From NCBI GenBank assembly GCA_030609325.1, contig JAUWCL010000004.1:1-64000 (forward strand): a stretch of 64,000 nucleotides of DNA. The letters are read 5' to 3'. The translations under genes and the position numbers were made by a program. Origin of the DNA: Candidatus Krumholzibacteriota bacterium (GTDB lineage: Bacteria; Krumholzibacteriota; Krumholzibacteriia; Krumholzibacteriales; Krumholzibacteriaceae). Below, one piece after another: positions 11,658 through 26,395 of this stretch. The notes under the pieces were generated by a model, which was not told where the DNA came from, ran no database searches, and saw only the letters and a program-made list of their open reading frames with translations. The first letter of the stretch is position 1. Every line of letters begins with the position of its first letter.

Positions 11658-12875
11658 ATGCGTTACAAGCTCCACCTCATCTCTTCCGCACGCAGGGCAA
11701 CGCTCGCCGGACACCTCCGCAGGGCAGGTGTAGATCCGGCCGGCATCGAGATCATGACACGGAAGGCCGAGACCGTGGTCATTCGGATCTGCGGACTCTC
11801 CGCGGAGGCAGCTAATATCCTGAAGCAGCAGATGCTCTCCATCGGCGGCGACGCGGCCGTTCACAGGGAAGTTATCCGGGGCGGACCCGACGATTCATGC
11901 GCCTACCTGATCTCGGATGCGAAGAGGCTCGAGATCCTCGCCGACAATCTGGCAAGCCAGCCGTTCGGCCTGGGCAAAGCGGGCGCGGAGATCGTCCGGC
12001 TGCTGAGGATAAGATCCTTTCCCCCGGCCGCGGTGAGCCTTCCCGAAGGCTTTATCGATCTGACCGGCGGCCCCCTCATCATGGGGATACTCAACTTGGC
12101 GCCCGACAGTTTCAGCGACGGGGGGCGTTTCAGCGATCCGTCGGCGGCCGCCGAAAGGGCCGCGCAGATGGTCGAAGAGGGCGCCTTGATAATCGACATC
12201 GGCGGAGAATCGAGCAGGCCCGGAGCCGCCGAGCTCGACCCGGCAGAGGAACTAGACCGTGTCACCCCGGTGCTCGAGAAAACAGCCGGCCTGAACGGCG
12301 CCGTTATATCCATCGATACCCGGCATTCCGAGGTAGCGAGGGAGGCGGTCCGTCTCGGAGCATCGATCATCAACGATATCAGCGGCCTTACTCACGATCC
12401 CGGGATGACTGAAGTCGCCATCGGGTCCGGTACGGCGGTCGTGGTAATGCACATGAAAGGCACTCCCGAAACGATGCAGGACGACCCGAGCTACGACGAC
12501 GCTCCGGACGAGATATCCGCCTGGCTCGAGTCGGCCGCGGACAGGCTAGTTGAAAACGGCATCGAACGCGATAAAATAATCGTTGACCCGGGAATCGGAT
12601 TCGGAAAAAGATTGGAAGACAATGTGGAGATCATTAATCGCGTAGGCGATCTCCATACGCTCGGATATCCGGTTCTCGTCGGTCATTCCCGCAAGTCGTT
12701 CATCGGAGCGATCACCGGGCGGAACAGGCCCGAGGAGAGGACTGGCGGCGGGCTCGCCGTGACGGGCAGGTGCCTCGATGCCGGAGTCCAGATCTTGCGC
12801 GTCCACGACGTCCGCGAGACGGCCGACTACATCAGGGTCTGGAAGGCCATCAACGGGAAAGGCGGCTCCTCTTGA
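11658..12875 (+). CDS. folP: Dihydropteroate synthase with N-terminal extension
   Basis: A folate-pathway enzyme that condenses dihydropterin pyrophosphate with p-aminobenzoate. The TIM-barrel part begins at about residue 142 with MGILNLAPDSFSDGG. Other family motifs are IDIGGESSRPGA, ISIDTRHSEVA, IINDISG and LVGHSRKSFI. A domain of about 135 residues precedes the barrel, which is longer than E. coli FolP. Similar extended forms occur in several anaerobic lineages, and the role of the extension is unknown. The stop codon overlaps the TTG start proposed for cdaA, implying translational coupling. GTP cyclohydrolase (folE) of the same pathway lies at 62177-62737. Confidence 0.95.
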   Translation: MRYKLHLISSARRATLAGHLRRAGVDPAGIEIMTRKAETVVIRICGLSAEAANILKQQMLSIGGDAAVHREVIRGGPDDSCAYLISDAKRLEILADNLASQPFGLGKAGAEIVRLLRIRSFPPAAVSLPEGFIDLTGGPLIMGILNLAPDSFSDGGRFSDPSAAAERAAQMVEEGALIIDIGGESSRPGAAELDPAEELDRVTPVLEKTAGLNGAVISIDTRHSEVAREAVRLGASIINDISGLTHDPGMTEVAIGSGTAVVVMHMKGTPETMQDDPSYDDAPDEISAWLESAADRLVENGIERDKIIVDPGIGFGKRLEDNVEIINRVGDLHTLGYPVLVGHSRKSFIGAITGRNRPEERTGGGLAVTGRCLDAGVQILRVHDVRETADYIRVWKAINGKGGSS

Positions 12876-13648
12876 GCTCTTTTCATTTCAATCTCACAAT
12901 CGATATGCTCGACATACTGATCGTCTCCTTCCTCTTCTACAGACTTTTCATGCTCTTCAAGGGCACAAGGGCCATCCAGATGTTCATCGGCCTCTTTCTT
13001 CTGATCCTCGTCTCCTTCATCGCCCAGTGGCTTAACCTCAACGCGCTCAACCGTATCCTGAGCAGCCTGAAAACCGTCCTGGTAATAGCGTTCGTCATCC
13101 TGTTCCAGCCCGAGTTGAGAAAGGCGCTGACGCAGCTCGGCCAGAACAGGATCATAGGGATGTTCCTCAAGGTCGAGTCGTCGGGGACCGTCTCGGAAAC
13201 GGTAAAGGCCTGCCAGCTTCTCGTGCAGAAGGGACTGGGCGCGATCATAGTCGTCGAGCGCGACGTCGGCCTGAAGAACTACATCGAGACGGGCACAAGG
13301 CTCGACGCGAAGGTTACCAGCGAGCTTCTCATATCGATATTCACGCCTCCCGGACCGCTGCATGACGGCGCCGTGATCGTCGAGAAAGACAGGATCATCG
13401 CGGCGGGGTGCATCCTGCCGCTCTCGCAGAACCCACGGATCGGCCGCACACTCGGCACTCGCCACAGGGCCGGGCTCGGACTCACCGAGGAAACGGACGC
13501 CATTGCGATCATCGTCAGCGAGGAAACGGGCTCGATCTCGCTGGCCCGCGAGGGAAAGCTCAAGCGCAAGCTCGACCTCAACGCGCTGCGAAACGAGCTC
13601 GTTGCCATCATCGGAATAAAATCCGCCGAGACCGTTCCCGCCGCGTGA
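12872..13648 (+). CDS. cdaA: Diadenylate cyclase CdaA
   Basis: A membrane enzyme that makes cyclic di-AMP from two ATP. The 258-residue protein has about three N-terminal TM helices followed by a DAC domain with the catalytic DGA (165-167) and RHR (197-199) motifs. I chose the TTG at 12872, which overlaps the folP stop as TTGA. It keeps the N-terminal helix expected for CdaA and has a purine-rich stretch upstream. ATG 12905 is the alternative and would trim 11 residues. The usual partners cdaR and glmM do not follow. Instead a convergent signalling cluster begins after about 300 bases. Confidence 0.93.
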   Translation: MSSFHFNLTIDMLDILIVSFLFYRLFMLFKGTRAIQMFIGLFLLILVSFIAQWLNLNALNRILSSLKTVLVIAFVILFQPELRKALTQLGQNRIIGMFLKVESSGTVSETVKACQLLVQKGLGAIIVVERDVGLKNYIETGTRLDAKVTSELLISIFTPPGPLHDGAVIVEKDRIIAAGCILPLSQNPRIGRTLGTRHRAGLGLTEETDAIAIIVSEETGSISLAREGKLKRKLDLNALRNELVAIIGIKSAETVPAA

Positions 13649-15528: not shown

Positions 15529-17301
15529 TCAGGAGACGGCCCCGGAGGGCTGTACCGATTTCGCTATCTCCTTCTCTATTACGGCGGCGAACTGGTTGAC
15601 GACCTCACGGTCGTAACGCAGGCCGTAATTCTCCTTAAGGGTGTCGAGCGCTTCCCTGCCGGACAGGGCCGGACGGTTCGGCCTCTCGTTTATCATGGCC
15701 GCATAGCTCTCGACAACGGAAATCAGCCTCGCTCCCAGCGGAATCTTCTTCCCTCTGAGACCCCTCGGGTAACCCTCGCCGTTGAACCGCTCGTGATGGC
15801 TGAGTACGACCTCGACAACGTGGTTGTTGAATTTCATACGCCTGAGCATTTCCGCCCCGTCCTCGGGATGTTTCTTGATTATCTGCCACTCTTCCCTGGA
15901 CAGCTCGCGCGGGCTGCGCACAATGAGATCGCTTACCTTTACCATGCCCATATCCCTGAGTACGGTACCGTAGATCAGATCCTTGAAGTTCTCTTCGGGG
16001 TAATTCATGTTCTTGGCAACCATGCCCACGTAACGGGACACGATCTCGGACGTCCCCTTCAGCATGGTGTTTTCCTCTATGAGCGATATGAGCGTCTTGA
16101 CTATGCCGAGCGTCCTCTCGTTTTCCCTTTCGAACATCTGGGCGTTGCTGTACGCACCCTTCGCCAGGTTGACGAGTATCTGCATGAATTCGAAATCTTC
16201 CTTCTGCATACCCCTGCCGGCGAGACGCTTACCGAGGAAGATCAGGCCGGTCATCTCCTCGCCCTGATTGAAGGGACAAACGTACTCGAGCCCCGCCTCG
16301 CCGAGACCGCTTTTCGTCTTGTCGCTCAGCGACATGCTGTCTATCTCGAAGACGTCCCTGCCCCATTTGATCCGTTCCACCTCATCATCGCTAAGCTCGA
16401 TCGGGGAAAGTTCCTCCTCGTCAATGCCCTTGCCTAGGGCAGGCAGGAAAACTCCCTCTTTATTCTCGTAGAAGACGGCAGATTCGACTCCGCCCTGGGC
16501 TATCGATGTCAGCAGGAAGATATCGAGCAGTTTCTTGCGTTCCCTGATCGAATTGAAGTCCGCGCTGATGGAGAACAGGGTCTTCAGCTCGAGGATGCGC
16601 CTCTTGAGCTTCCTGTTGAGCTCCTTGACGTCTTTCGTCTCGATCTCCTCGGTGAGACTGAACGGCGATACCGGATCGTCGATCCACTCGGGCGGAGATC
16701 CGCTCGGCTTGGAGTTGAATATCTCCGAAATGATCTCTTCCTCGCCGGCGTCCTCTTCCACGGCAGCCTGCAGTGCGGTTTCCGTTTCCCCGGCCTCAAC
16801 TGACTCCTCGACAACCTCTTTCTCCTGCTCCCCTCCCGATTGCGGTTGGTCGCTGCCGGAATCGTACGCCATCAGGATGACCCCGTCCTGAACGGCTGAA
16901 TCGCTTTCAGGGGCAGCTCCCGGCTGCGCGGCCTTCTCCTCTTTTTTCGCGGCCGGTGCTGCGCCGCCGGAGACGGCTTCGTCCAGTGTCGAACAGATGC
17001 GGATGTTCGTCTCGCCGTCCTGTAGAAAATCGAGGATGACACTGCTCGTGACCGCGAACGTGACCTCGCCGCCCATTTTCCTGAGATCCTTCACGAACCC
17101 CCTGAGGATCTTCGCCACACCGCCGCCGAGCGACGTGAGCTCGGAGAAGTCGAAGACAACCTGCTTGAGTTCCCTCTTGAGACATTCCTGCGTCAGCTGC
17201 TTGATCTTCTCGTTCTCGTGGAATCCGAGCTTGCCCGAGATCCGGAATCCGCCGCTGTCGGCACCGCCGATCTCGAGTTTTTCGAATCTGGTCCTTGTCA
17301 T
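15529..17301 (-). CDS. STAS-GAF-degenerate HD-GYP protein
   Basis: A 590-residue paralogue of the neighbouring HD-GYP regulator: the linker, GAF-like part and HD-GYP part align, but the N-terminus is a STAS domain (DFSELTSLGGGVAKIL). A long acidic linker (about 115-200) separates STAS from the rest. In the HD-GYP part the metal-binding His-Asp motif reads LRDMGM, so Arg449 replaces the His. HHERFNGEGYP and GYP at 510-512 remain. The protein is therefore probably not a normal phosphodiesterase and may sense or sequester c-di-GMP, or regulate its active paralogue. It lacks the Ser typical of anti-sigma antagonist STAS phosphorylation sites (SLGGG instead of SSG). Confidence 0.85.
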   Translation of the reverse strand: MTRTRFEKLEIGGADSGGFRISGKLGFHENEKIKQLTQECLKRELKQVVFDFSELTSLGGGVAKILRGFVKDLRKMGGEVTFAVTSSVILDFLQDGETNIRICSTLDEAVSGGAAPAAKKEEKAAQPGAAPESDSAVQDGVILMAYDSGSDQPQSGGEQEKEVVEESVEAGETETALQAAVEEDAGEEEIISEIFNSKPSGSPPEWIDDPVSPFSLTEEIETKDVKELNRKLKRRILELKTLFSISADFNSIRERKKLLDIFLLTSIAQGGVESAVFYENKEGVFLPALGKGIDEEELSPIELSDDEVERIKWGRDVFEIDSMSLSDKTKSGLGEAGLEYVCPFNQGEEMTGLIFLGKRLAGRGMQKEDFEFMQILVNLAKGAYSNAQMFERENERTLGIVKTLISLIEENTMLKGTSEIVSRYVGMVAKNMNYPEENFKDLIYGTVLRDMGMVKVSDLIVRSPRELSREEWQIIKKHPEDGAEMLRRMKFNNHVVEVVLSHHERFNGEGYPRGLRGKKIPLGARLISVVESYAAMINERPNRPALSGREALDTLKENYGLRYDREVVNQFAAVIEKEIAKSVQPSGAVS

Positions 17302-17659: not shown

Positions 17660-19330
17660 CTAACTCGTCTCCACCACTTCATCTACCCAGGAGCCGGTCT
17701 CCTCCATGTCTTCCTCGAGGCCCTGTACCCAGCTGTACCGGTCTATCAACAGCTGGACGTCGAGCACAGGGAATTCCCGTTCTCCGATGTGGAGAAGACG
17801 CCTGGACAGTGATGCCCAGCCGTTCTCCGTGACCTGCTCGATCAGACCCTCGACCTTCCGGCCGGGCCCGTCGGACAAGATGCCGATCCGCTTTTCGGCC
17901 AGCCCGAGTATCACGACATGATCGCCCTCGGGGCCGGCGCCGAGCTCATCGGCAGCAAGCTCGTCCACCCTGCAGACAGGGATGCGCGAGCCGTCGTGCC
18001 TGACGGATCTGCCTCCCTGATCGCTGTCTATCTGGATCCGCGAGAGATCGATAACGCTGTCCACGCTGTGCTTCGGAACGGCAAACGTCATGCCGGCCGA
18101 ATCGATCAGGTGATAGTCCGTAATCACCGACGTGCGCGGGAAGGTGAACCTGAAGCGGTCCTCACTACCATCGCCGGGCTCGACCCACAGCAGCGCTCCC
18201 CATTTCCTGAGCAGCCCCCTGGCCTGGAGCAGGCCGTGGTAGTAAGCCATTGCGTCGTCCCTGTCAATCTCGGAATCACTGAGATAGTCGCTCGCATCGT
18301 CGAACACACTGGCCGTCATATACGAACCCTCGCTGGATACATCTATCTTCACGCTTACATCTCTTCTGTTGCTTCGTTCGCTCATCCTGCATATATCGAA
18401 TACGCAGTTCTCAAGGATTACGGCCAGGTCGGTCGCGGCCTCTCTCTCGAGCGAAAAATCGTCGGTCCTCGTCCTCAGCTCCGTCTTCCAGTTCCTCAAC
18501 CTGCTGTGGACCCCTATGAAGTCCTTCAGACCGTCCATCACCGTCGGGCTCGAGACCTTCGACCTGAACGTCTTGCGGTTCTCTCCAAGCCTGCTCAGCA
18601 TGCTGCCGAGCATAGCCATGAAAAACTCGCTCTCGCCAATCGCCAGCTCGAGGTCCCTGACCGCTGCGTCTCCCCTGTTCCCTTCGCTGAGGCATTCTTC
18701 CAGCCTGTAGTCAATCTTCTTCAGCGAGTTCTGGAGTCTCACTATGGTCACAAAACCATCCGTCTCGCCGGCGGTAGATTCGCGGGATTCGACTTCATTG
18801 CTCTGTTGGACTGTCTCTTCGGCGCTCTTGTCCGATACGGGCATCTCAAAGAGGGGTTCCTCCCCCTGAGCGGACTCCCGCTCGATACTCACGCCAGGTT
18901 CGGAAGACGTTTCGTCGACGCTCTCGAGCGGTTCGGAGAGGACCAGCTCTATCTCCCGCTGAAGCCCCCCGAAATGGGTGAGGTCGATTTCCCCGTCCTC
19001 GTCGGCAACGATCTCGGCGACCGCCATCTCCTCCGTCTCGAGGATCTCGGACACGATCTGCGAGACCTGCTCGTCCCAGTGCCTTCCGGCCGAGAGGGAT
19101 CTCGCGAGAAGGTCCCTGAACATCGTGAGCGTCCTGCTCCACTCGTCAAGACCAAGCATCTGCGTGCTGCCTTCGAGAAGCCTCCCCGCGAAGCAGGCTT
19201 TCTCGACGGGGGTCCTGTCCAGCGGCTGTCCGCATGCAAGTCCCATCAGATCGTTGAGCTTGGCGATGTGGTCGTTGACTTGCTCGCCAAATAGCTGCCT
19301 GTTCTCAATGCTCAGCATCACCACGGACAT
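17660..19330 (-). CDS. CheA-like scaffold lacking the phospho-acceptor His
   Basis: A 556-residue protein with CheA order: an Hpt-like helical domain (1-110), an acidic linker, a helical segment, a degenerate HATPase-like domain (about 310-400) and a C-terminal CheW-like domain (about 405-535, FAVPKHSVDSVIDL and IGILSDG). Where CheA has HxxKG with the phosphorylated His, this protein reads RLLEG, so Arg50 replaces it. The N-box is ILENCVFDICR and no DxGxG-type G1 box is recognisable. Kinase activity looks lost while the receptor-coupling CheW fold is kept. The MCP-like gene is five bases upstream, implying a physical complex. Confidence 0.75.
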   Translation of the reverse strand: MSVVMLSIENRQLFGEQVNDHIAKLNDLMGLACGQPLDRTPVEKACFAGRLLEGSTQMLGLDEWSRTLTMFRDLLARSLSAGRHWDEQVSQIVSEILETEEMAVAEIVADEDGEIDLTHFGGLQREIELVLSEPLESVDETSSEPGVSIERESAQGEEPLFEMPVSDKSAEETVQQSNEVESRESTAGETDGFVTIVRLQNSLKKIDYRLEECLSEGNRGDAAVRDLELAIGESEFFMAMLGSMLSRLGENRKTFRSKVSSPTVMDGLKDFIGVHSRLRNWKTELRTRTDDFSLEREAATDLAVILENCVFDICRMSERSNRRDVSVKIDVSSEGSYMTASVFDDASDYLSDSEIDRDDAMAYYHGLLQARGLLRKWGALLWVEPGDGSEDRFRFTFPRTSVITDYHLIDSAGMTFAVPKHSVDSVIDLSRIQIDSDQGGRSVRHDGSRIPVCRVDELAADELGAGPEGDHVVILGLAEKRIGILSDGPGRKVEGLIEQVTENGWASLSRRLLHIGEREFPVLDVQLLIDRYSWVQGLEEDMEETGSWVDEVVETS

Positions 19331-19335
19331 TCACC

Positions 19336-21273
19336 TCACAGATTTGCTTCAGCCTTTTCCGCGTACTCTACCGCGCCGAGTTCGAAGAGGTCGTATACCA
19401 GCTCTTCGTCTGACTCCGGCATGCTGTCATCCATGTTTCCGGCTGAAGCGGGAGCCTTGAACCCTGGTACGACCTCAGGCTCTACAGCAGGGATCTCGTC
19501 GACGGGCGCGCTTTCCACTACTGGCTCTACTTCCACCTTTTCCCGGTCGTCAGCCTGTTCCTGCATATCATCCCAGCTCCCGCCCGCGGACGGATCGGCC
19601 TCCGCGACCGTTTCCTGCTGAGGAGGCGCCGCCTGTTCCGCTTCCGCGATCGGTCCGCCGGTGAACAGCTCGTCCACCACATCGGGAACCTCTTCGGCCT
19701 GCACCTGCTCCTCGACCTCCTTGTTTGTCTCCTCGGGAATTGCTTGAACCTCTTCCGCCTGCTGCTGATCAGCGTCGGACAGCATGGCCCTCATCGTATC
19801 CTGGAACCCCGATATGAGAAACTCACCGCTGTCGTCAGTAACCTCTTCTTCGGTAACGTCATCAACCGGAGCGCTCGTGTCGTCCCCCCCCCAGAGTTTT
19901 CCATGCTCTATCATGAAGTCGGAATCGTCGACCCCGCCGGGCTCATCATCCGATTTTTCGGTGTCGGCGCCGAAATTCACGATCGAGCCGTCTGTGGCGC
20001 GGATGAGCTCGTCCCCTTTATCGGCAATCTCGATATCCCCGGACTCTACGTGTTCGAACTTGAGTGTCTTGTTTATCTCTCCCATGTCGTTGCAGAGGGC
20101 CGTCATCTTCTGCTGAAGGGCCCGGCTGCGCGATTCGATCTTTGTCGATATCTCTATTATCCCGTGTTTCACTTCGGGAGAGGTACAGGTACCGGCGGTA
20201 ACGGAGCCGCCAGCAGATGATCTCGCGTTCCTGCTGCTGTCGGCCACGGTCCTCGCCAGGCTCTCCAGCTCTCGTCCGAGCTTGCTGAACCTCTCGGCCG
20301 TCGATCTGACTTTCTCGGCGAGATGCGCGAGGTCTTTCTCGGTCGTCTCGCCCCTCGCAGCCATCAGCGCTATATTGAGAGCAAGGCCGTTGCTTTCCTC
20401 GGAGAGCTCATGGATCGCTGAGCCTCTCTCCTCGAGAGCGACGGCAGTGGTCTCGATAACTGCGGTCGCGTCGGATGGGGAACCGGCATCGGCGGTTGTA
20501 CCGGATCCGCTGGACCCGAGACTTTCGGCTACCGCGTTGAGCCCACCTGTCAATCTGACTATATCGAGTATGTCCTCACTGGCGCCCGCGGCTATCTCGA
20601 CGACCTTGCCACAGGAAAGGGAAACACGGCCGGTCGCCTGCCTGGTCGCCTCGGACTGCTTCCTGAGTTCTGCCGTTCCGCCAGCGTTCTCATCCGCCCA
20701 TACCTTGACCTTCCTCACGATCGAGCCCCACCAGTTACCCTCGGCGAGCGTCTCGTTCATTTCCTTCCCCGCGAGGATCGAATCTATCTCCAACTCGAGA
20801 TCGACGGACCTCATCTCCTCCTCACGACTCTCCATGCCCTCAGAGATCTTGCGGATCTGGTCGCCGTAGCTCCTCAGGACATCCTGAAGCTCGGGGTACT
20901 CGGAAAGCCTCGCTATCTGGGCCGGATTGGTCAGATCGTCTATGCTGTCCGCCAGGGAAATCATCTTCCGATAATCCTGCCCGGAATTGAGGTAATACTT
21001 GTATCTGCGCACCGCGGAGGCTATGACGAAATAGGTAAACAGTGCGATAAGCACCACGCCGGCCGCTGCCGGGTAGATCTCCCTGAAGAACTGGTACGAG
21101 TCGATGACCCACTTGCTGACGTCGGAACTGAGCCAGTAAAGGTCGATGTCGTATACCCTGACCATGTAATAACCGACACCGAAACTGGTAACGATGAGCA
21201 TGAGCGCCACCATCATGCCGATTTTCCACGGAGAGGTGAGTACAGGTTTCTTATCTCGCTTTCGTTTTCCCAC
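19336..21273 (-). CDS. MCP-like membrane protein with atypical signalling tip and acidic tail
   Basis: About 645 residues from the GTG at 21273, chosen because AAGGAG lies six bases before it; ATG 21321 is the alternative. Two TM helices close to the N-terminus (WKIGMMVALMLIVTSFGVG and AAGVVLIALFTYFVIASAV) enclose only about 30 residues, so there is no large ligand domain. The cytoplasmic part has heptad-like helices, with EESNGLALNIALMAARGE where chemoreceptors have the QTNLLALNAAIEAARAGE tip. The following GFAVVAxEVR stretch is replaced by DLAHLAEKVR. The last 230 residues are acidic and low-complexity. It is probably the receptor for the CheA-like protein. Confidence 0.75.
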   Translation of the reverse strand: MGKRKRDKKPVLTSPWKIGMMVALMLIVTSFGVGYYMVRVYDIDLYWLSSDVSKWVIDSYQFFREIYPAAAGVVLIALFTYFVIASAVRRYKYYLNSGQDYRKMISLADSIDDLTNPAQIARLSEYPELQDVLRSYGDQIRKISEGMESREEEMRSVDLELEIDSILAGKEMNETLAEGNWWGSIVRKVKVWADENAGGTAELRKQSEATRQATGRVSLSCGKVVEIAAGASEDILDIVRLTGGLNAVAESLGSSGSGTTADAGSPSDATAVIETTAVALEERGSAIHELSEESNGLALNIALMAARGETTEKDLAHLAEKVRSTAERFSKLGRELESLARTVADSSRNARSSAGGSVTAGTCTSPEVKHGIIEISTKIESRSRALQQKMTALCNDMGEINKTLKFEHVESGDIEIADKGDELIRATDGSIVNFGADTEKSDDEPGGVDDSDFMIEHGKLWGGDDTSAPVDDVTEEEVTDDSGEFLISGFQDTMRAMLSDADQQQAEEVQAIPEETNKEVEEQVQAEEVPDVVDELFTGGPIAEAEQAAPPQQETVAEADPSAGGSWDDMQEQADDREKVEVEPVVESAPVDEIPAVEPEVVPGFKAPASAGNMDDSMPESDEELVYDLFELGAVEYAEKAEANL

Positions 21274-21513: not shown

Positions 21514-22323
21514 CTATTTTTTCCTGCTTTTCAACGTGATCTGCGAGTACAGACCCGGGAACCTGTCGGCAAAGATATCGTTCGCCGGGGTGACATGCTT
21601 GTCGTCCGCCTCGGTGACATCGATCTCGATTACCTTGAGCGACTCGCTGCGGTCACCCGCCGAGACGAGAATCTCGCCCGCAGGGCTCATTATCTGGCTT
21701 CCGCCGGTAAAAGTCAGGTTCAGCGTGCCGCGTCTCTCCATGCCGATCCTGTTGGCCGTTATACCGAAGACCCTGTTCTCGATACATCTTATCTTCATCG
21801 CCTCCTGTCCCCACGGTAAAACGAGGTTGGCCGGGTGGGCAAGAATACCGGCGCCCTTCAAGGCAAGCGAGCGGGCGACCTCGGGCATCATCCAGTCGAA
21901 GCAGATCATCACGCCGATCTTCGCCTCGGGCGTACTGATCGTCTTGAGAGACCTGCCCGGGGTGAAAAAGAGCTTTTCCCGGTCAAAGAGATGTACCTTC
22001 TGATATGACTCCACCTTACCATTCGGCGAGACGAACACGGCGGAGTTGTAGACAGCCCTCGCCTTCTTCTCGGCCATGCCGAATATCAGATTGAGTTTGC
22101 ACTTCTTGGCAATCTTCTTCATCTCAGAGACCGTGTATCCCCTCAGGAGGGGCTCGGCCAATGAGTTGACTTCCCTCTGGTTTTTAAACAGGTAGCCGGT
22201 ATTGAACAGCTCGGGCAGGACGATGGTGGCGTCGGATACCTTGCCGAGAAGCGTAACTGCTTTCTGCACGTTCGCTTTGACTTCCCCGAACTTGACGCGG
22301 AGCTGAAGGAATCCTACTCTCAT
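21514..22323 (-). CDS. Carbon-nitrogen hydrolase (nitrilase superfamily)
   Basis: A 269-residue amidase/nitrilase-fold enzyme. The Glu-Lys-Cys triad is readable: Glu in VLPELFNTGY, Lys in YQKVHLFD, Cys in MICFDWMMPE. I chose the ATG at 22323, with GGGGGAG about five bases upstream, giving the family-typical start MRVGFLQL. The substrate cannot be told from sequence; omega-amidases and N-carbamoyl-hydrolases share this core. It stands alone, divergent from the hypothetical gene at 22518. Confidence 0.9.
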   Translation of the reverse strand: MRVGFLQLRVKFGEVKANVQKAVTLLGKVSDATIVLPELFNTGYLFKNQREVNSLAEPLLRGYTVSEMKKIAKKCKLNLIFGMAEKKARAVYNSAVFVSPNGKVESYQKVHLFDREKLFFTPGRSLKTISTPEAKIGVMICFDWMMPEVARSLALKGAGILAHPANLVLPWGQEAMKIRCIENRVFGITANRIGMERRGTLNLTFTGGSQIMSPAGEILVSAGDRSESLKVIEIDVTEADDKHVTPANDIFADRFPGLYSQITLKSRKK

Positions 22324-22517
22324 TTGCTCCCCCTGGAAATAAAGGTTCGACGAATCGAGCCGAACTCGCAATATTGCGGCATTATATCAGAGAATCGTCA
22401 GAAATATAAAGAATTTTCCCTCCTGTAAGATTTATCTGGGTTTTTCATGGCATAGACCTTGCAATTTCGCCCTCCGGAACCGGTTTAAGCCGATCGAACC
22501 GCAGCGGAGAGAGCATC

Positions 22518-23297
22518 ATGGAGTCTTCAACAGCATACAGACCGGTAGGAAAGGGCGACACCCACCCGTCTCCGGCCTATTACTACATGATGGACAACCT
22601 GCTCGAGTGCAGGAAGGAGAGCGGGTTCCCGTCCAACAGGGAATTTTTCGACGAGGATGTCAACGTCTACCTCGCCGGGCTTCTCACCTCTCACGTCTTC
22701 GGGAACGCTGCCGGCACAACGGCTGGAATGATAATTTCTTACGACATTCCTCTGTTCGAGGCGGCGAGCAGCGAGGCCGATTCCCGCAGGAGATTCAATA
22801 TTTACAGGGCGAACGCCGACCATCTTCTCGTAAGGCTCGGGGTGTTCAACAATCCCAGCGGACGCAGGCCGGGCTCGGCGACTCACATGGCCCTGACGAG
22901 GGATGCATGGATAGGCAGAGGAAAGACATACTACAGGCTCGCATGGGCATGCGCGGCGGAGACGTTCAGGCACACGACGGCAATCGGCGACGTGATGGGG
23001 AAGCTGTCGAGCGGATTCGAGAGGTATGTCGGGGTCCTCTCCGCGATGAGGTCCTCCTGCCTCAACATGATCCCCCACATAAGCAACGGCGAGATGTTCC
23101 ATCTGGAGAGAAGCGTCCTGGAGGAGGACAGGAAGAAGGAGGTCACCGCCCTTTACGACCGTTTCCTCGACGCATGGACGGCATACCGTAAGTCCCGGGC
23201 CCCGAACGACAGGAAAAAGCTGGATATGGTATCCGAGGAGTTGAAAAAGGCCGACCCGTCGTTCTCGTTCGATCCGCTCGCAGCGGATACCCGCTAG
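22518..23297 (+). CDS. Hypothetical protein, helical, unrecognised
   Basis: I do not recognise this 259-residue protein. It is soluble, rich in Arg, Lys and aromatic residues, and predicted to be mainly helical. It has no signal peptide and no obvious catalytic motif. Distinct stretches are DEDVNVYLAGLLTSHVFG near 45-62 and RANADHLLVRLGVFNN near 96-111. The start ATG has GGAGAGAG eight bases upstream. It is divergent from the nitrilase gene, and its stop overlaps by four bases the end of the convergent hydrolase gene. Codon use resembles the housekeeping neighbours, so it is likely a genuine lineage gene. Confidence 0.7.
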   Translation: MESSTAYRPVGKGDTHPSPAYYYMMDNLLECRKESGFPSNREFFDEDVNVYLAGLLTSHVFGNAAGTTAGMIISYDIPLFEAASSEADSRRRFNIYRANADHLLVRLGVFNNPSGRRPGSATHMALTRDAWIGRGKTYYRLAWACAAETFRHTTAIGDVMGKLSSGFERYVGVLSAMRSSCLNMIPHISNGEMFHLERSVLEEDRKKEVTALYDRFLDAWTAYRKSRAPNDRKKLDMVSEELKKADPSFSFDPLAADTR

Positions 23298-24199
23298 ACG
23301 CCCTTTATGAAATCACCGCAATAGCCGAAGACCTTCCCGGAATCTTCGCCCTTTATTATGACGTGCCCGCCCTTCGCCAGAAGGACAAACTTCGACTTAG
23401 GACTGGTCGCCCTCTTCTGCAGGAACTGGTATCCTCTCGCGGAGATGACCGGATCGTCAGCGGCCTGTATCACGAGCATCGGTTTGTCGATCGGCCCCGA
23501 TCCCAGACTCGAACGGGTCCTCTCGATCAGGTCGAGCATCATGCTCCGGACCGGCATTACTTTCTTCGTCAGCCCGGGCATGAACCGCCTCGCCGTCCAG
23601 AACATCGCGAAACGCGAACCGCCCACGGGAAAAAGACCCGGTGAGAGCAGGATCGTCCCCCTGACGGGGAACTTCTGCATGAGGTTCAGGGCGATCGTCC
23701 CGCCGAAGCTGAATCCCGCCACGTATGAATCAGACGAGTAGGCAAGTAACGTATCGAGAGCGACTTCCGCCTGCGCAAGGCTTGCGCTCCAGGCTCCGCC
23801 GCCGTTCACCCCGCGGCCGTTGTGTCCCTTCCCCCCTCCCCTGCCGACGAGAGCCATGACGTACTCGGTAAATCCCGAGTCGGAGTAGTTCGGATCGATC
23901 GGGAGCCTGATCCCCAGCACGGTGAATCCCTGCCTGAAGAGATGCTCGGCCATCGGCCGCATCTCCTCGGGAGAGCCTCCCGCTCCATGGATGAGGAGAC
24001 AGGCTATTGCCTCCCTCTTCTGGAGCTTCAGGAAGCTCCTGTCCGGTTCGGGCACACCGTTGCGTCTCTCGACGAAAACCTTGCTGTCGACCCAGAAGTT
24101 GAGCAGGTCCTTCCTGTAGTCGTAGGTCTCCGGATGGAGGCGTACCTGCTCGCGCAGCTCCCATATCGACTGGTTTATTCTCTCCAGTGTCTTTACCAT
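23294..24199 (-). CDS. Alpha/beta hydrolase (esterase/lipase family)
   Basis: A 301-residue alpha/beta-hydrolase with oxyanion motif HGAGG (near residue 70), nucleophile elbow GFSFGG (Ser near 167), an acid in AADDPVIS and a terminal His in KGGHVI. The N-terminal 60 residues are helical and charged. It resembles the monoacylglycerol lipase/carboxylesterase group. There is no signal peptide, so it is probably cytosolic. The start overlaps the stop of the Fe-S protein gene by one base (TGATG), indicating translational coupling. Confidence 0.88.
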   Translation of the reverse strand: MVKTLERINQSIWELREQVRLHPETYDYRKDLLNFWVDSKVFVERRNGVPEPDRSFLKLQKREAIACLLIHGAGGSPEEMRPMAEHLFRQGFTVLGIRLPIDPNYSDSGFTEYVMALVGRGGGKGHNGRGVNGGGAWSASLAQAEVALDTLLAYSSDSYVAGFSFGGTIALNLMQKFPVRGTILLSPGLFPVGGSRFAMFWTARRFMPGLTKKVMPVRSMMLDLIERTRSSLGSGPIDKPMLVIQAADDPVISARGYQFLQKRATSPKSKFVLLAKGGHVIIKGEDSGKVFGYCGDFIKGV

Positions 24200-24900
24200 C
24201 AGCTGTCATCAGCCCCTCGGCAGACCTTAATGCACAGGCCGCAGATCATCGTGTTTATCTTCTCCGATTTCGCGAACCGCCTCAGCTGCGCGGTGCATCT
24301 GTCGAGGCTGAACTTCCCAGGATCGTCGTCGATCGCCTCGACCGGACACATCTTAACGCATTCGCGGCACGTTCCGCAATCTCCACCTGCATGGCCGCCG
24401 CTCTGCGCGGGCAGTTCCATGTCGGTCAGCACGGTGACGAGTCTCACCATCGAGCCGAACTCGGGGGTGATCAGGAGGTTGTTCCGACCCATCCAGCCCA
24501 GGCCGGCCAGGCCGGCGATCTCCCGGTGGGAGAGATGAGCCTTCAGAAGATCCCAGTCGAGTATCTGCGACACCGGTATCGGCAGGGCCGCGAAGCCCTC
24601 CCTCTGGATCTCACCGGCGACAAAGAGTGCCGCCTGGTCGAGGGCGATGTTGACCTGCCTGTAATGGTAGTAATAGGTCCAGGTAGGAGCGGTCAGAACG
24701 GTCTGCAGCACGGGGTCGGAGAGCCGTATCCCCATCGAGACCGCGTATGGAAGCAACTTCGCTATGTCCCTGATGGATTCGTGGAAGCGGAGTCTGTGCT
24801 CCTCGTCGATCCTCGCCGTGCCGAAGAGATCGATGCCTGCCAGCTCTGCGGCCGTCCTGAGCTTTTCGAAGTCGATCTCTGATTGAAGCCGCTCGCTCAA
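24199..24900 (-). CDS. 4Fe-4S protein related to epoxyqueuosine reductase
   Basis: A 233-residue protein with GLGWMGRNNLLITPEFGS, typical of the cobalamin-binding half of QueG-type reductases. It is followed by two cysteine clusters, CGTCRECVKMCPVEAI and CGLCIKVCRG, for [4Fe-4S] binding. It is much shorter than QueG (usually over 300 residues) and lacks HEAT repeats. It more likely belongs to the broader reductase-like family than to the queuosine enzyme itself. It is translationally coupled to the hydrolase gene downstream. Confidence 0.8.
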   Translation of the reverse strand: MSERLQSEIDFEKLRTAAELAGIDLFGTARIDEEHRLRFHESIRDIAKLLPYAVSMGIRLSDPVLQTVLTAPTWTYYYHYRQVNIALDQAALFVAGEIQREGFAALPIPVSQILDWDLLKAHLSHREIAGLAGLGWMGRNNLLITPEFGSMVRLVTVLTDMELPAQSGGHAGGDCGTCRECVKMCPVEAIDDDPGKFSLDRCTAQLRRFAKSEKINTMICGLCIKVCRGADDS

Positions 24901-24928
24901 TTCTGCCCCCGGAGTGTCGCTGCCGATA

Positions 24929-26395
<1,467 letters not shown>

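Follow-up and report, generated by a model that had tools for sequence, protein, structure and literature searches.

A CheA-like protein whose phospho-acceptor position is occupied by Arg raises the question of whether it can still act as a kinase and, if it cannot, what it does. Such a protein is encoded on the minus strand of the window (64,000 nt of a Candidatus Krumholzibacteriota contig), and an earlier note on this sequence had read it as a pseudokinase with a structural or competitive role. Here we compare it, hereafter pseudo-CheA, with its relatives in the class, with canonical CheA and with its gene neighbourhood (Table 1). The relatives compared are mostly named Candidatus Krumholzibacteriota or Krumholzibacteriia, and two are named Latescibacterota or Latescibacteria.

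Table 1. Features of the pseudo-CheA cluster, in the direction of the minus strand
Feature	Position in window	Strand	Basis
MCP-like membrane protein, 661 aa	19336..21321	-	MCPsignal match, AlphaFold2
MCP-type signalling hairpin, residues 282-371	20209..20478	-	AlphaFold2 helices 282-323 and 328-371 (low confidence)
C-terminal motif VYDLFELGAVEY of MCP-like protein	19363..19398	-	class-wide conservation
Pseudo-CheA, Hpt-like / P3-like / P4-like / P5 CheW	17660..19330	-	556 aa ORF
Hpt-like (P1) domain, residues 1-132, five helices	18935..19330	-	AlphaFold2, hhalign, E. coli CheA alignment
H21, sole family-conserved His, helix A	19268..19270	-	25/28 members
R50 codon, place of the phospho-accepting His	19181..19183	-	alignments to E. 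coli His48 and canonical H46
P3-like helical hairpin, residues 194-248	18587..18751	-	AlphaFold2 helices 194-215 and 221-248
Degenerate HATPase (P4-like) domain, residues 258-398	18137..18559	-	AlphaFold2, Foldseek
D312, invariant Asp replacing N-box Asn	18395..18397	-	29/29
D344, retained G1 Asp	18299..18301	-	29/29
CheW-like (P5) domain, residues 403-535	17726..18124	-	Pfam PF01584
Excisionase-family HTH protein, 79 aa	17323..17562	-	NCBIfam TIGR01764, 48.7 bits
STAS + degenerate HD-GYP protein, 590 aa	15529..17301	-	Pfam STAS 37 bits, HD_5 113 bits
R449-D450, RD replacing HD in STAS-HD protein	15952..15957	-	alignment
REC + weak GAF-like region + intact HD-GYP response regulator, 516 aa	13965..15515	-	Response_reg 93.7 bits, HD_5 134.9 bits

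Overall fold and domain order

The ORF encodes a CheA homologue with the domain order Hpt-P3-P4-P5. Its sole Pfam match is CheW (residues 408-531, 26.1 bits against a cut-off of 23.5), a domain matched by 23/29 family members at E<=0.1, and neither Hpt nor the P3 dimerization domain (H-kinase_dim) of Pfam matches the protein. The AlphaFold2 model computed with 29 family members (mean pLDDT 80.5) comprises five N-terminal helices (residues 8-29, 39-58, 62-80, 87-108 and 118-132) followed, past a disordered linker, by a hairpin of two helices, an ATPase-like fold and a domain resembling CheW; the domain names used here are our reading of this predicted secondary structure. In a Foldseek search with the model, the best eight matches are all CheA chains, with 6s1k at the top (E=2.9e-14). 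Structure prediction, which the earlier note had named as a check, thus returns a CheA-like fold with R50 in helix B. Profile comparisons point the same way, with E=1e-8 against canonical CheA of the same class (hhalign) and 6.5e-11 for CheA in a search of PDB sequences with the family profile; a PDB search with the single protein gave no match.

Canonical CheA, represented by that of the same genome on contig C53 and by those of E. coli and T. maritima, shares with pseudo-CheA the order of Hpt, predicted P3-like hairpin, HATPase fold and CheW domain. Unlike canonical CheA, pseudo-CheA lacks the phospho-His, the N-box Asn and the GxG motif, has a shorter G1-G3 segment and has no detected P2.

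Loss of the phospho-acceptor histidine

The motif R50-L-L-E53-G54 lies within helix B of the five-helix N-terminal domain. Gap-free alignments pair R50, which sits in the middle of the helix, both with E. coli His48 (CheA, 2lp4) and with H46 of the canonical CheA encoded in the same genome (hhalign E=1e-8), where the phospho-site motif reads HNLKG. His is found at this position in 0/28 readable pseudo-CheAs, as against 15/15 canonical CheAs of the same class, bearing out the claim that Arg replaces the phospho-acceptor. The companion expectation of an Arg conserved across orthologues fails: R and K predominate here (18 R, 5 K), but S (2), G, T and N (1 each) also occur. In addition, the P1 partner residues K49, H65 and E68 (numbering of the same canonical CheA), invariant in the 15 canonical proteins, are replaced in pseudo-CheA by E53, T69 and R72, all of which vary across the family.

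We found no alternative phospho-acceptor His in helix B, and among the 28 members no column other than H21 is mostly His. The earlier note would have given way to a different phosphorylatable His in the helix together with an ATP site; the one near-invariant His, H21, is instead in helix A. Many CheAs also carry a His in helix A. Phosphorylation elsewhere, for example on H21 by another kinase, could draw on the retention of this residue, but the position is Gln in family f6 and the Lys, His and Glu partners of the P1 site are gone, so that we regard this reading as highly unlikely.

Taken by itself, the Hpt-like domain compares weakly with canonical P1 (hhalign E=0.011, probability 4%), and in a profile search of the PDB CheA P1 appears at E of about 0.1 with unrelated chains scoring alike. 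Because these domain-only comparisons are weak, we base the Hpt assignment on alignment over the full length, on the match to E. coli CheA and on the fold predicted for the domain.

Degeneration of the ATPase domain

The canonical CheA on C53 reads NAHNLKGMSGAMGYDHV, LLRNAVDH, DDGRGI and GRGVGM. The register of the N box in pseudo-CheA differed between hhalign, HMMER and visual alignment, and was decided by a constant spacing: in both canonical and pseudo-CheA the N-box position is 18 residues after the L-D/E-R strand (LER/LDR). In this register, Asp stands in place of the N-box Asn in every member, and the His residues that flank the Asn in canonical CheA are variable. The GxG motif is lost, its second glycine being Gly in none of the 29 members, and the region from the G1 Asp to G3 spans 45-48 residues as against 77-80 in canonical CheA, i.e. 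about 32 fewer. Pfam HATPase_c matches weakly in 7/29 pseudo-CheAs. The earlier view that no usable N or G1 box is visible is therefore right as to the N-box Asn and GxG and too strong in one respect, since the site can be traced and the G1 Asp is kept.

As judged from these alignments, the losses in P4 are inconsistent with a normal kinase. Together with the loss of the P1 active-site residues, the change of the N-box Asn to Asp, the loss of the G1 and G2 glycines and the lack of an alternative His in helix B, they leave the predicted pseudokinase status of pseudo-CheA, as first proposed, well supported by sequence.

The two invariant Asp residues, D312 and D344, raise the possibility of a nucleotide- or metal-binding switch devoid of kinase activity. 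P4 has a low dN/dS (0.042), consistent with such a switch, but the glycine motifs and the lid are lost and both Asp residues may be structural, which makes a switch of this kind distinctly improbable.

Conservation and selection

Across families f1 and f2, the mean pairwise identity of pseudo-CheA is 0.51 for the Hpt-like domain, 0.46 for P4 and 0.37 for P5. Over long distances it is thus the Hpt-like domain that is best conserved, rather than the CheW domain. In canonical CheA of the same families, P1 is the least conserved folded domain (0.55, versus 0.59-0.67 for P3-P5). The description of the CheW-like domain as well kept accordingly holds in that the domain is recognisable above the Pfam cut-off, but it is not the best-kept part of the protein.

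Compared with its counterpart in the genome G001, pseudo-CheA has a dN/dS of 0.12 over the whole gene, with 0.123 for the Hpt-like domain, 0.095 for P5, 0.042 for P4 and 0.035 for P3; values for canonical CheA come from a different genome (G002, dS 0.17) and are not comparable with these. By this measure, other domains therefore evolve more slowly than the Hpt-like domain within the genus. The whole-gene value indicates that pseudo-CheA is under purifying selection and is not decaying. A decaying, functionless remnant might be suspected from the many catalytic residues lost; class-wide retention, synteny, the low dN/dS and reading frames intact in nearly all members effectively refute it by selection, and we give it almost no credence. 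In a tree with canonical CheAs, a single branch (SH-aLRT 100) sets all 29 pseudo-CheAs apart; this branch is long, and the program warns of long branches meeting there.

The MCP-like protein upstream

In the direction of transcription the cluster reads MCP-like, pseudo-CheA, HTH, STAS-HD and REC-HD, and the MCP-like gene ends 5 bp before pseudo-CheA. The Pfam MCPsignal match of its product is weak (residues 289-404, 22.9 bits, below the cut-off of 34.6), and 9/16 MCP-like members match at E<=0.1. The AlphaFold2 model, of low confidence (pLDDT 58), shows two helices that we interpret as spanning the membrane, together with a short hairpin and a tail that is long and disordered. A structural role coupled to receptors, as the earlier note suggested, is plausible, because the gene of a degenerate MCP-like protein directly precedes that of pseudo-CheA and shows synteny over most of the class. 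Such coupling may not be universal, given the low-confidence model and the f3 protein upstream of pseudo-CheA, in which no MCP hairpin is recognisable.

Nearly every MCP-like member ends in a motif like that of Table 1. The consensus is (V/I)(Y/H/V)DLxELGAVE, which several f5 and f6 members carry twice, and an exact-pattern scan found the motif in 19/4154 ORFs, all of them MCP-like proteins. In f5, the HTH gene lies beside a STAS-HD gene and a membrane-protein gene whose product carries the same C-terminal motif; no pseudo-CheA was recognised in the f5 loci, two of which are too short to hold one. Since f5 carries the motif where pseudo-CheA is not recognised, we infer that the partner of the motif may be a protein other than pseudo-CheA. 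Short proteins are encoded between the membrane-protein and HTH genes of f5 (L106:7641-8642, L110:9603-10232, L111:9305-9979 and L105:8973-9731); these would at most be candidate relatives of pseudo-CheA, with a receiver-like match that is weak and confined to the C-terminus (prob 47%). In f4, HTH is the only member of the cluster recognised.

Persistence where no canonical CheA is detected

The host genome carries an intact canonical cluster on C53, with CheA, MCP, CheW, CheB, CheD and CheR. A competitive role, in which pseudo-CheA would take receptor sites and dampen canonical CheA in the same cell, finds its support in this coexistence. Eight module-bearing genomes speak to the matter (G025, G029, G032, G033, G036, G039, G040 and G042; estimated completeness 80 to 97%, with G029, G036 and G042 each a single contig). 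In none of them was a canonical CheA (by protein search) or H-kinase_dim detected. CheW matches are absent from 6/8, and those of G032 and G039 hit only the module's own gene (on C48 and C69, respectively). MCPsignal matches are absent from 7/8, and the only one, in G032 (C48:161055-161336), lies in the MCP-like gene beside pseudo-CheA. Retention of the module in these eight genomes, where neither a canonical CheA nor any CheW or MCP beyond the cluster was detected, contradicts competition with canonical CheA as a general role, one of the two roles first proposed. Pseudo-CheA moreover has its own MCP-like neighbour and a strongly diverged P5, and we consider the competitive role improbable.

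CheR-domain genes occur in 4/8 of these genomes (G033, G036, G040 and G042). A second CheR-domain gene lies outside the chemotaxis cluster at G000:C9:140607-141140.

A proposed role as scaffold or coupler

On balance, we favour pseudo-CheA as a phosphotransfer-free scaffold or coupler in a degenerate chemosensory-like module of its own. It probably signals by contact and not by phosphate transfer, since the phospho-site and key ATP-site residues are lost, yet the protein is conserved beside a receptor-like protein, even where no chemotaxis kinase is detectable. In such a mechanism, a dimer formed through P3 would use its P5/P4 region to dock on the hairpin of the MCP-like neighbour, and the signal would pass as a conformational or assembly change instead of as phosphate. 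The Hpt-like domain would then offer a surface on which another protein docks, perhaps a receiver, either the REC of the REC-HD-GYP protein or a REC fused to the C-terminus of pseudo-CheA. The HTH and STAS/pseudo-HD-GYP proteins would probably act downstream, and the only catalytic output would be the intact REC-HD-GYP protein, which by family membership is expected to hydrolyse c-di-GMP.

DivL of Caulobacter is likewise a pseudokinase derived from a histidine kinase with its phospho-His replaced, and is not known to carry a CheW or Hpt domain. It keeps the H, N, G1, F and G2 box motifs except for Tyr in place of His (PMC4211667) and, with CheA3 of Rhodobacter sphaeroides (PMC10782961), offers a partial precedent for the proposed mechanism. 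For R. sphaeroides CheA3/CheA4, a CheA is described that has a non-functional kinase-like domain and Hpt domains that lack the conserved His (PMC10782961). CheA3 keeps one phosphorylated Hpt and works with CheA4, whereas for pseudo-CheA no catalytic partner CheA was detected in the eight genomes. P. aeruginosa ChpA also has Hpt domains without a phospho-site, the role of which is left undetermined (PMC10782961); unlike pseudo-CheA, it retains other Hpt domains with His. A survey of thousands of CheA homologues takes four core domains, Hpt phosphotransfer included, as the minimal functional unit, and leaves open what His-less Hpt domains do (PMC10782961).

Pseudo-CheA represents a line of CheA descent that has neither the His nor an intact ATP site, that selection maintains, and that occurs also in genomes with no detected catalytic CheA. 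Should its proposed role be confirmed, nature would here have parted the scaffold and coupling functions of CheA from kinase activity, and the module would provide a clean setting for studying the function of an Hpt domain that cannot be phosphorylated. In the literature covered, outside which lie most subscription journals and preprints, no CheA-type pseudokinase of this kind is described and no study deals with chemosensory genes in Krumholzibacteriota; this does not prove novelty.

Downstream genes and receivers of the module

The cluster order is kept in 5/8 sampled families: f1, f2 and f7, and in diverged form f3 and f6. The HTH gene is present in 74/118 genomes, all of this class. In the STAS-HD protein, RD replaces HD in 18/18 aligned class members, and in f5 RD was found in 6/7 of those checked, the seventh being missed by the pattern; the protein is, from these residues, a probable pseudo-phosphodiesterase. 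Other expected HD-GYP ligands also look lost. Many STAS proteins have a DSSG motif with a phosphorylatable Ser, and at that position the protein of the cluster reads GGG-like. The REC-HD-GYP protein is usually present in the cluster, with HD kept in all aligned members.

It is quite possible, though we hold this broader claim more tentatively than that for pseudo-CheA itself, that the whole module, with pseudo-CheA, pseudo-HD-GYP and a degenerate MCP and kept across most of the class, works by contact and conformation with no phosphotransfer at its core.

A receiver is found in the module of every aligned clade: in REC-HD in f1 and f2, fused in f6, and in both forms in f7; f3 has REC-HD with or without a receiver fused to pseudo-CheA. 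Receivers fused to the C-terminus of pseudo-CheA were seen in f3 (1/2), f6 and f7, at loci L029, L030, L032, L033, L045, L046, L047 and L049. This distribution would suit a phospho-reader of the DivL type, in which the Hpt-like domain binds a phosphorylated receiver and relays its state, reversing the usual flow. Consistent with such a reader, the phospho-Asp of REC-HD is kept in f1, f2, f7 and the one f6 case, and DivL itself, with Tyr for His and no kinase activity, binds DivK~P specifically (PMC4211667). Glu nevertheless takes the place of this Asp in f3 REC-HD and in 2/4 aligned f7 fused receivers, and we judge the phospho-reader unlikely, if the most serious competitor to a scaffold or coupler that is free of phosphotransfer.

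The module is flanked on one side by folP and a CdaA-like gene (11658-13648) and on the other by a block at 21517-26395 that comprises carbon-nitrogen hydrolase, alpha/beta hydrolase, QueG-like and guaB genes. The order of these flanking genes is largely kept in the class.
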